A stretch of DNA of 64,000 bases from Apus apus (lineage: Eukaryota; Chordata; Aves; Apodiformes; Apodidae): assembly GCF_020740795.1 (NCBI RefSeq), contig NC_067304.1, positions 4,578,056-4,642,055 of the forward strand, in the 5' to 3' direction. Within the stretch, counting starts at the first letter, position 1. Each line of letters begins with the position of its first letter. This document shows positions 32,092 to 37,300 of this stretch, piece after piece. The notes below the pieces were generated by a model. The model was not told the DNA's origin, searched no databases, and saw only the letters and a program-made list of their open reading frames with translations. The translations under genes were made by a program, and so were the position numbers.

Positions 32092-32263
32092 TCAGCTTCT
32101 GCCCTGCAGTGTCCCTGGGCTGCTGGGCTGGCCCTGGTGGGTCTTCACATGCTTGGCTAAGTGGTCACTGCGGGCAAACTTCTTCAGGCAGGTGACACAC
32201 TGGTATGGCTTGTGACCAGAGTGGGAGCGCCGGTGCCGGGAGAGCTCATCCGAGCGGGAAAAC
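32092..32263 (-). CDS. KLF15-like coding exon 2
   Basis: It encodes the end of finger 2, finger 3 and a short tail [14 protein letters not shown]. The acceptor is CCCCTGCAG before 32263; the stop is at 32092-32094. The joined reading frame continues exactly through the [15 protein letters not shown] block. Confidence 0.92.
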
Positions 32264-34935
32264 CTGCAGGGGAAGGAAGTGCTGGATCCAGCCCTCACTG
32301 CCAGACAGGACAGGGGACATGAGGACCCTGGCATGTGGCAGGCTGGGGTCTGTCTCTGCCACAGGTGACCCTAGACAGGTCACTTCTGCTCTGCTCCATC
32401 CAATCCACCAGCGAGGCACAGGTTCCCCAGGCTCCTGCTGGAGACATGGAAAAGACCAAACCCCTCCAAGGGGTTAAAGGGGAAGAAAAGAACAGTTTCC
32501 CACAGATAGGAAAGAGGAAAATAATTTATTTAGCCACTGAGGTCTTCAATTCTTTCTACTGCTCTTAAGGACACTGTCCAAGTGTTTGCTTTGTTTGAGA
32601 CACTGAAACCTTTTGGGGGCTGACAGCCCCAAGGCCAGATGCTCAGGGAACCTGCTTTTTGGGGCATCAGCCCAGGCTGGCAGTGACTAAAGGACTCTGC
32701 TCGGGAGCCTGGGTGGAAAAGTTTTGCTGTAACTCCCACATCCAGCCCAGAAGAGCATCACTGTTAGGAGAGGGCTTGTTTTTCCTGAGAGAGGAAACCC
32801 TAGCCCATCTTTCTCAGAATGGCAGCAAGTTTTCACTGTCATCCTGGGCTGGGTGGGAGCTGGGGAGAGAGAGGCTGCCTGTGAGCTGGTTTAAATACTG
32901 AGCACAAGGGAGGAAAAGCAAACACACCCCAGGCCCTGAGCATCAGGTGCAGGAGGGTTTAGCAGTACTGGTTGATACTGGAAAAGGAGTCAGTGCCTAC
33001 AGGTATGTACTATGGCTACAGGTGACATGGAGGAACAACTGCTGATGGCAAAGGGACAGCAGCATGTCCTACAATTCACACCTAGTCTCACACCTTCCAG
33101 AGGTTTTCACCACCCTGAGACAGAAGCCACAACCTACCATTCCAGGAAACAAGGCAGGGAGTGTGTGCCAAAGCATTGCCTCAGACCCCAGGAAAGCTCA
33201 GTGCTGCCAGCACCAGTTTTCCTTCTGATGAGCTTTGAGATCTGCTGATGAGAAGTGCTGCTATCAGCCCTTCTTGCCAAGGGCTGCACTGAGCATCCTG
33301 CCCCCAGGACAGGCACATGGTGCCAGGAAGAGAACACCCCAGCAGAAAAATAATCAGAGAAGTGCAGCGAGATTAAAAAGCAAGGTTAATTTAGGGAATA
33401 CAGATGAAAGCAAGCAACAACCACCATCATCTGCAGAGGAAACAAAAGCAAAGGCAACATGGAGATGTGCTCCAGGCCCACAGGTGTCTAGGGATGCAAG
33501 CAGCCAGGGCAGGCAAACAGTGAGAAAGCAAAGGGTTGCTGAAAAAACACAGGACTAGGCACTGGCTCGTGAGGAAGCCGTGAGACTCCTGTTTCCAGGG
33601 ACAAATATGAATGGAAAAAGCCGTTTTTGTAGCCCAACTGCAGAAATTGTCCTGAGGTAGAACAGAGAAAGCCTGCAAAATTACATCAGCACTTGGAAAA
33701 AAGGGTGTTTGGGCATCGAGTTCAAGGGGGACCTGGGGTGTTTTGGAGAAAGTGTCCCCTACCTCTCCCCACCTGCAGGTTTTCAGCACTTTTGAACTGA
33801 GTGAAAACTACCCAAAGCGCTGAACAAACTTCACTCCTCCAGCCCCTCTCCCAGCTCCCACCTGCAATTCCCTCGGGAAAGAAAACGTAGTGATTTCATT
33901 CTGGGTTTTCACAAGCCAGGAGCTCTCCTGGCAAGCAGCAGGAGCCCTTTGGCAGGGACACCCACTGTCCTAGAGCCCCCTGGCTCCCACTTACCTCCAG
34001 CCACAGTTGGGCCAGGCACAGGGATAGGGCTTCTCCCCCGTGTGCCGCCGGGAATGAGCCTTCAGGTGGGAGCTCTTGGTGTACATCTTGCCACAGCCTG
34101 GGTGGGAGCACTGATGGACACGGAGGAGGGAAGGGAGGGATTTCTGACACCTGGGGGTCACCTCCATCTCCTGTACAGCCCCTGGCCTCATGGTGACTGG
34201 CAGGGGGGCAATTCTGATGTACTTTTGGTCCGTGATGGTCACAGGGGGCTGGACCTGAGGGAGGAGGGACAAGTTTTGGCCCTGCAAGCTGATAACCAGC
34301 TGGGCCATGCTGGCACCACAGGCAGCACTCTGCACAAGCAGGCTGCCACTGTCCATCTGGAGAGGCTGGATTTGGAGGACAACAGGAATGCTTCCAGCAG
34401 CCACTGCCTGGTCACCACCACCAGCTGTCCCTCCAGGCTGGGCAGCATTTGAGACCTCTTCTTCTTGAGCCACGCTGGAGACAGGCTGTCTCCCACAGCT
34501 ACCTAAGCTGATCTCAGATTTGATCCTCACCTTCCCTCCAGCCGGGTCAAGATCACTTGCTTCATCTTTGAGGAATTCAGCTTTCTCCCTTAGGAACTCC
34601 TCAATCTCCTCCAGGGTGGGAATGAAGTCCTGGGAGAGGCTGCTGCAGAAGTCAGGCAGCTTGAGGTGAGCCTCACAGACAGTCTCTTGGGGTTTTGTGT
34701 CTTCCCCCTTAGCACTGGGCAGGGGGAGTGAGGTGGCTTCAAGGTGGCTGGTGCTGTCTGCAAGGAGATGGCCAGAGCCTTCTGGGGAGCTGGACACCTT
34801 CTCAGTGCCATGTCCCTGCAGAAGGGATGGTGACATGCTGTGTTGCAGGGCACTGGCAACACTCTCCAGCAGCAAAGAGCTGGTCAAGGAGGGCAGCAGC
34901 TCCTGGCAACTCACAGAGACCATTTGTTGACTCAT
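32092..34935 (-). CDS. KLF15-like Krueppel-like zinc finger transcription factor
   Basis: Two coding exons (34935-33995 and 32263-32092) join in phase 2 into 370 residues ending TGA. It is a nuclear C2H2 factor expected to bind GC/CACCC boxes. Three fingers: C276/C281-H294/H298, C306/C311-H324/H328, C336/C339-H352/H356, with [23 protein letters not shown] and [11 protein letters not shown] recognition helices. The second linker is HSGHKPYQC, the odd SG-type linker of KLF15, rather than TGEKP. Outside the fingers, blocks typical of KLF15 remain: [12 protein letters not shown] (104-115), IPVVLQIQP (183-191) and [10 protein letters not shown] (238-247). VRIKSE at 136-141 is a sumoylation-type site. 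The rest of the N-terminus is unlike KLF15. I chose the first in-frame ATG after an upstream TGA; the ATG at 34923 has a stronger Kozak context and could also be used. The gene lies between SLC45A3 and ELK4, on their strand. It looks like a KLF15 paralogue rather than KLF15 itself, judged from sequence and position. Confidence 0.9.
32335..32405 (+). mobile_element. Possible MIR-like fragment
   Basis: TCTGCCACAGGTGACC and AGACAGGTCACTTCTGCTC resemble the central MIR segment (CTCTGCCAC ... GTGACCTTGGGCAAGTCACTT). It lies in the intron that splits the zinc fingers. Short match. Confidence 0.4.
33995..34935 (-). CDS. KLF15-like coding exon 1
   Basis: It encodes residues 1-313 and two bases of Arg314: the regulatory N-terminus, finger 1 and half of finger 2. 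The donor is TGGAG/GTAAGT. Splitting finger 2 just before [10 protein letters not shown] is the intron position seen in KLF genes. The physical exon starts at 35021 after a CTTTACAG acceptor. Confidence 0.9.
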
Positions 34936-34991
34936 GTCCTTTACCCACACAAAGCTCTTGGCTGAGCTGGGTCAGAAGCCTCTGCAAGAGC

Positions 34992-35021
34992 TCAGCTGGG
35001 GCTCCTGAAGTCTTTGTTCAT
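34992..35021 (-). other. Upstream short ORF in KLF15-like 5' UTR
   Basis: The exon after the 5' UTR intron begins exactly with ATG and reads nine codons to TGA, ending 56 bases before the main start. This arrangement can reduce translation of the main frame. Confidence 0.5.
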
Positions 35022-36315: not shown

Positions 36316-36634
36316 TCCCTTGCAGAGCAGTGCTAAGGGGAAAGATGCAATCTGGTGGGATGCTCCATTACTACAGGCTTTGTAGATGCCTGTTACAGAT
36401 GTCAGTGCCTTGTCAATCCAAGGCATTTCTGCAAAATGCACGTCAACAGGGCTGTCACCCCAGAGAAGCCACTGCAAGAAAATGGAGACCTGACTCTGGC
36501 CTCAGTGAAGCACACTGCAAGACAAGGTCAGTGTATTTTTCAAGCTTCACTTTGCGTTTCTGTTCCCATAGTTTTGCAAATCCCTATGAGCACTCGACTG
36601 CTGCATGAAACCAGCAGATGTGCAGTCTGAGCAC

Positions 36635-36740
36635 ACAGAGAAAGAGTAATTTGCCCAAGGTCAGCCAACAAGCAGGAGCTGGGAACTCAGCCCAGGGTTA
36701 CAACTGTCCTCTGGTGACTACACAACACGAACAAAACACC
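36635..36740 (+). mobile_element. MIR-like SINE remnant
   Basis: AATTTGCCCAAGGTCAGCCA followed by AGGAGCTGGGAACTCAGCCC matches the 3' half of MIR (TTGCCCAAGGTCACACAGC ... CAGAGCTGGGATTCAAACCC). Confidence 0.6.
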
Positions 36741-36879
36741 TCCAAGGGCTGTGGATTCCATCCAGTGTCCGTGCAGGACCTGGACTCTCCAAGCCTTTCA
36801 GGACAACCATAACGTGCTGTAACAGGTCAGACACCGCCACGTGTAGCAGATCCCTCGAGAGACAAACAGATCCCTGGCG

Positions 36880-37300
36880 CTTCCCCCCGGCCAAGGACCA
36901 GCGCGCCTGAGCTCAGCCTGCCACGACTGCAGCCCCCGCAGCACCGCGGGGCTGGGGAGCCAGAGCCTGGCCCGGCAGCTCGCTTCACCCCCGGGGGGGA
37001 GGAAGAACAACCTCTCCGCCCCCAGGCCGCCCTCACCCCGGCTCCCGGGGAGCGGGGACCCCCCGCACCCCCTTACCGGTCCGGTCCGCGGTGGCCGCGC
37101 GGCTCCCGCAGCGCGGGGGCGGGTCCGGTCCGCCCCGCCGGGGGCTCGGCTCCTGCCGCCCGCCCCATTGGCGGCCAGAGCCCGGCACGGCCCCCCCCGG
37201 CCCGGGAGGGGCACATGGGGCTGCTGCCCGGGCCTGGGGATGAGCTGGTGCTGGAGGAGATGCCGCGACCCGGCCGCTCTTCGCCATCGTCTCCTCTCCT
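36880..37300 (-). promoter_or_regulatory. CpG island, promoter of KLF15-like gene
   Basis: CpG-dense sequence with GC boxes and, on the minus strand, a CCAAT box at 37167-37171 just upstream of the proposed first exon. It has no TATA box in the right place. Confidence 0.7.
37077..37140 (-). other. Non-coding first exon of KLF15-like gene
   Basis: A donor GACCG/GTAAGG follows 37077 in a CpG island, facing the acceptor at 35021. The upstream end is not defined; GC boxes (GGGGGCGGG at 37115-37123 and its complement at 37131-37139) and a CCAAT box mark the start region. Confidence 0.5.

Follow-up and report, generated by a model that had tools for sequence, protein, structure and literature searches.

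A KLF15-type gene between ELK4 and SLC45A3 in Apus apus, probably a second KLF15 kept from the early vertebrate genome duplications

A stretch of 64,000 nucleotides of the Apus apus genome (hereafter the window; assembly GCF_020740795.1, contig NC_067304.1, positions 4,578,056 to 4,642,055) contains a KLF-type zinc finger gene between ELK4 and SLC45A3. This raises the question of whether the gene is KLF15 itself, moved to another place, or a separate relative of KLF15, and of when such a relative might have arisen. A sequence-only reading of the window had proposed a separate KLF15 paralogue, perhaps from the early vertebrate genome duplications. The present analysis indicates, with a probability of about 0.8, that the window gene is a functional KLF15 paralogue that stems from the first and second rounds of these duplications (1R/2R) and was kept in this sauropsid lineage.

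The window KLF gene starts with an ATG at 34935 on the minus strand and is read in a single frame of 370 codons plus a stop, which is joined across an intron of 1731 bases (donor CTGGAG/gtaagt, acceptor ccctgcag/GTTTTC). None of 2000 base shuffles kept the 326-codon open stretch of the gene (33994-34971) free of stops, which rules out a chance open frame. The product contains 370 residues and three complete C2H2 fingers with all zinc ligands present; these fingers are C-terminal, span 81 residues, and have KLF spacing, as is characteristic of the KLF/SP family. Pfam reported generic C2H2 models only, and the matches to solved sequences included fingers of KLF4, KLF5, KLF10, and KLF15 (among 60 of the 202 matches, which were those listed). 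The complete two-exon KLF frame with three intact fingers that the sequence-only reading described was therefore borne out. The same applies, as matches to consensus signals, to its CpG promoter and its own poly(A) signal: the observed/expected CpG ratio was 0.65, 0.85, and 0.58 in three 200-base steps through the CpG peak, and the CCAAT box adjoins a GC box in this promoter candidate. The 5' noncoding exon is likewise a consensus match, with a donor candidate whose last exon base is 37077 and an acceptor candidate whose first exon base is 35021. A 9-codon upstream reading frame (35021-34992) begins exactly at this candidate acceptor of the coding exon, and could damp translation of the window KLF gene.

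Coding exon 1 of the window gene served as the query against the genome (1.10 Gb, 110 contigs). Of the 25 matches, the window gene itself ranked first, followed by a gene on another contig (C10) at E 5.3e-43; the next match was at 2.0e-9, and from this value downward the matches that were inspected corresponded to fingers of other KLF/SP genes. The C10 gene consists of two exons (C10:8329597-8330639 and 8336623-8336791, at 8.33 Mb), encodes 403 residues, and ends with RFPRSNRSVRSVN. The 21-residue transactivation segment of rat KLF15, as printed in PMC8047332, was matched at 19 of 21 positions in the C10 gene and at 14 of 21 in the window gene, and the C10 gene was taken as the ordinary KLF15 because of the former match. 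A second KLF15 elsewhere in the same genome was the check on which the proposal of a separate paralogue depended; it was run and found KLF15 on C10, and therefore the window gene is a separate paralogue. This rules out that the window gene is KLF15 itself, moved. A one-to-one KLF15 orthologue is also ruled out by the second, more typical gene on C10, which has the N-terminus and tail of KLF15. A retrocopy of KLF15 was rejected because the intron within the coding region is retained. No relative turned up in scans of viral contigs and of prokaryote contigs.

The two proteins are identical at 160 of 352 aligned residues, and at 68 of 81 within the fingers; the finger identity of the window protein to 19 other KLF/SP/EGR sequences was at most 55/81. 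Outside the fingers, a local alignment of the two proteins scored 215, whereas 1000 shuffles reached at most 73. The window gene shares with KLF15 the zinc ligands, the transactivation motif, an IPVxLQIQPxQ motif, an AQLxxxxQGQ stretch, and IRIAPxP, and the DNA-contacting residues of the three recognition helices (KSSHLKA, RSDELSR, and RSDHLxK) are equal in both. In contrast to KLF15, the window protein has 370 instead of 403 residues, the N-terminal serine-rich block of KLF15 and the basic tail at its C-terminus are missing or replaced, and the window gene is located on another contig with ELK4 and SLC45A3 as neighbors. A finger tree of 21 sequences and 81 columns joined the window KLF and KLF15 with an SH-like approximate likelihood ratio (SH-aLRT) of 96.2 and an ultrafast bootstrap (UFBoot) of 91 in IQ-TREE, and with 0.966 in FastTree. 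The terminal branches of the window KLF and KLF15 were 0.162 vs. 0.102 (IQ-TREE) and 0.129 vs. 0.114 (FastTree). With a finger identity of 84%, this pair resembles the KLF10/11-type pair (86%) and falls below seven other compared KLF pairs (89-95%). From finger 1 onward, the alignment covers 94 codons, in which 26, 18, and 50 differences fell at codon positions 1, 2, and 3, respectively, and 39 of the 68 identical finger residues were encoded by different codons. Silent sites have changed under selection that maintained the protein. These codon-position counts were used in place of the ratio of nonsynonymous to synonymous divergence (dN/dS), as NG86 on the fingers gave a dN of 0.148 without a dS.

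The intron inside finger 2 was compared with 22 other genes of the same genome (13 KLF, 5 SP, and 4 EGR genes), which are a subset of its KLF/SP genes and are labelled by motif. Exon limits in this survey were judged by the start or end of the finger-like reading, and two further loci (L061 and L070) gave no usable finger and stand outside the 22. All 13 KLF genes are interrupted in the linker that joins fingers 1 and 2, and two of them again in finger 3; two of the five SP genes break after finger 2, three are unbroken within the fingers, and all four EGR genes are unbroken there. Among the 24 genes, only the two of KLF15 type are interrupted within finger 2, both at the same codon and in phase 2. 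The sequence-only reading had called this intron typical of KLF genes, and this description has to be given up, since 0 of the 22 other genes have such an intron. The shared finger-2 intron is evidence for the pairing of the window KLF with KLF15 that is independent of the tree. The phase-2 intron, the transactivation segment, and KLF15 as the nearest relative in the genome place the window gene in the KLF15 subgroup. The SP-type gene L006 (C7:22238226-22241354) shows unreadable (X) residues after its finger-3 exon.

For the origin of the pair, neighbor families were picked from human 1q32 and 3q21/3p25, and each was searched genome-wide. The SLC41 family (MgtE model) gave six exon matches, all of which fall in three places, on the contig of the window (C24), on C10, and on C1. 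SLC41 lies 79 kb from the window KLF and 154 kb from KLF15, and its orientation equals that of the KLF gene on both contigs. A rough value of 8e-7, calculated post hoc and under uniform placement, was obtained for the chance that both KLF15 genes lie at most 160 kb from one of three SLC41 genes. The 25 genome-wide exon 1 matches included no third gene of KLF15 type close to SLC41 on C1. ATP2B gave six matches, on C1, C24, and C10 only, and the 13 plexin matches included C24, at 0.69 Mb from the window KLF, and C10, at 0.72 Mb from KLF15. ATP2B and PLXNA are two of the seven families that trace four-fold 1R/2R paralogy, with the ATP2B quartet on human chromosomes 1, 3, 12, and X, and the paralogy is also seen in chicken (PMC8851675); KLF and SLC41 are not named in the available text of that paper. 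ATP2B is present here on three contigs vs. the published quartet, and the fourth member, ATP2B3, may be missing in this assembly, have been lost, or have escaped the search. KLF matches near 42 Mb and ETS and SLC41 matches near 147-149 Mb lie on one common contig of 206 Mb. The presence of ATP2B and plexin genes on both C24 and C10 places the two KLF15-type genes in this published paralogon, and together with the SLC41 neighbor of each gene it supports the origin in the early vertebrate duplications that had been suggested from the sequence.

Several points weigh against this origin. SLC41 is located upstream of the KLF gene on C24 and downstream on C10, so that gene order differs locally between the two contigs; the plexin family is weakened as evidence by further matches at other places on C10 and on C1; and ETS genes, with 27 matches genome-wide of which only ELK4 was assigned, provide no support for the link between C24 and C10. 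The finger tree is short, with 81 columns and some partial rows. As one vertebrate genome was compared, the duplication is placed in time by synteny and divergence and not by a dated tree. The window gene is known here from genomic sequence alone, and it is missing from two chicken surveys, which according to their available text list 13 KLF genes on ten chromosomes (PMC10177326, 2023) and 14 KLF genes with none outside ten named chromosomes (PMC11394431, 2024); both place a single KLF15 on chromosome 12. The gene may have been lost in some birds or be an unnamed gene there, and automated annotation may hold it under a LOC name. Literature searches on the gene or its context returned titles and abstract openings in which no bird KLF15 duplicate was named.

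The two chicken lists would also agree with a more recent duplication of KLF15 confined to sauropsids or birds, in which the copy landed beside SLC41 by chance and then evolved fast, as would the presumed absence of the gene from mammals and the restriction of the comparison to one genome. However, the rough chance of landing at most 160 kb from one of the two other SLC41 genes is 6e-4 (post hoc, uniform placement), ATP2B and plexin genes lie on both contigs, the retained intron means that the gene is no retrocopy, and the divergence resembles that of the KLF10/11-type pair; a later duplication is considered unlikely. Somewhat less probable again is a decaying or non-expressed copy that still appears intact. 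This would be consistent with a gene known from the genome assembly only, with an N-terminus and tail that differ strongly from those of KLF15, and with a terminal branch somewhat longer than that of KLF15, but it is opposed by the 370-codon open frame, all zinc ligands, the splice sites, the candidate CpG promoter, and a distribution of changes over codon positions that is typical of constraint. A tandem KLF15 duplicate that predated 1R/2R and was split between chromosomes through reciprocal loss would account for the opposite order of KLF and SLC41 on C24 and C10, but it requires extra steps, no contig harbors both types among the exon 1 matches, and we regard it as very improbable.

As a probable 1R/2R paralogue of KLF15, the window gene is apparently functional, judging from its 370-codon frame, zinc ligands, splice sites, CpG candidate, and codon bias. 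Its product would be a sequence-specific transcription factor, whose three C2H2 fingers with KLF15 recognition residues are predicted to bind GC-box/CACCC DNA, and whose conserved acidic-hydrophobic segment may recruit p300-type co-activators, as reported for the counterpart in KLF15. The effects of KLF15 tested in PMC8047332 were abolished by deletion of the transactivation segment, and a peptide of the KLF15 segment competed for p300 in work cited in the discussion of that paper. Most likely, target sites of KLF15 type would be shared while regulation or partners would differ from those of KLF15; such a divergence is proposed because the serine-rich N-terminal block and the basic tail are missing. 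Having a separate promoter and changed ends, the window gene probably acts at other places and times than KLF15.

Placental mammals are not known to have a KLF gene between SLC45A3 and ELK4. In humans, the nearby genes SLC45A3 and ELK4 give rise to a joint read-through transcript (PMC12564374, PMC3218660), and the read-through candidates in PMC3218660 were defined as close neighbors without an intervening gene. On the basis of these papers on the human read-through and of the lack of a known KLF gene at this place in placental mammals, the window gene may have been lost in mammals. Similar to the window gene, extra KLF15-type genes beside KLF15 are found in fishes. Zebrafish contains KLF15a and KLF15b, for which a teleost-specific duplication was suggested (PMC3820594), pikeperch contains three klf15 genes on two chromosomes, one of which is klf15l (PMC12673963), and salmon has the paralogues klf15a, b, and d (PMC12609175). 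KLF18 of placental mammals is likewise an extra KLF gene that was found with the help of synteny, but unlike the window gene it was attributed to a local duplication of KLF17 and not of KLF15 (PMC3820594). We give even odds to a wider scenario in which the ancestor of jawed vertebrates had two KLF15 genes, and the second remained next to SLC45A3 and ELK4 in the sauropsid lineage and perhaps also in that of fishes, some of whose klf15b or klf15l genes would then be orthologous to it and not products of the teleost duplication; its loss in mammals would have joined SLC45A3 and ELK4, the read-through pair of prostate cancer.

In mammals, KLF15 regulates metabolism and the heart, and both chicken surveys, as far as their available text goes, treat it as a single gene. 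A second KLF15-type factor would alter the interpretation of expression and knock-down data on bird KLF15, through shared targets and redundancy. The window gene would also add one retained 1R/2R pair, and the adjacency of human SLC45A3 and ELK4 could, if the scenario is true, be explained by the loss of the intervening KLF gene.

Table 1. Features of the KLF gene and its neighbors, in positions of the window.
Feature	Position	Strand	Basis
Coding exon 1 (variable N-terminus, KLF15-type transactivation motif, IPVVLQIQP and YIRIAP motifs, finger 1, front half of finger 2)	33995..34935	minus	translation, splice signals, alignment with C10 KLF15
Finger-2 intron, phase 2, gtaagt...ctgcag	32264..33994	minus	same codon and phase as in C10 KLF15
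Coding exon 2 (remainder of finger 2, finger 3, short C-terminal tail, stop)	32092..32263	minus	query residues 42-88 match here
Poly(A) signal AATAAA	31983..31988	minus	consensus match
CpG-rich promoter candidate with CCAAT (37171-37167) and GC boxes	36800..37399	minus	consensus match
Candidate 5' noncoding exon	37077..37140	minus	donor after 37077; putative start, from the sequence-only reading
Candidate 5' untranslated part of coding exon 1	34936..35021	minus	acceptor ending ctttacag
SLC45A3-like gene, upstream of KLF	42257..48932	minus	outer limits of open frames with recognized exons
ELK4 coding exons, downstream of KLF	8818..13940	minus	ETS exon 13749-13940; long exon within 11429-12394

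The position of the KLF gene between ELK4 and SLC45A3, as first read from the sequence, stands, and all three genes are on the minus strand. The ETS exon had ELK-4/SAP-1 as its top solved structure by sequence (141 bits vs. 107 for ELK-1), and two reading frames near 10.2 and 8.9 kb, identified by eye against the human protein, are presumably the two last ELK4 exons. The frames at about 48.9-42.3 kb are taken to be SLC45A3-like from resemblance to the human protein and not from a database match. Rfam at gathering thresholds gave zero matches in the window. A minisatellite with 11/23/45-base units (GGGGGATGC type) lies at 38417-38819, between SLC45A3 and the CpG promoter of the KLF gene. A second one, with 24/89-base units, lies at 23075-23553 within a G+C-rich stretch at 21-24 kb, which is probably the promoter region of ELK4, and a CR1-like repeat fragment, in keeping with bird DNA, occurs near 9.0 kb.

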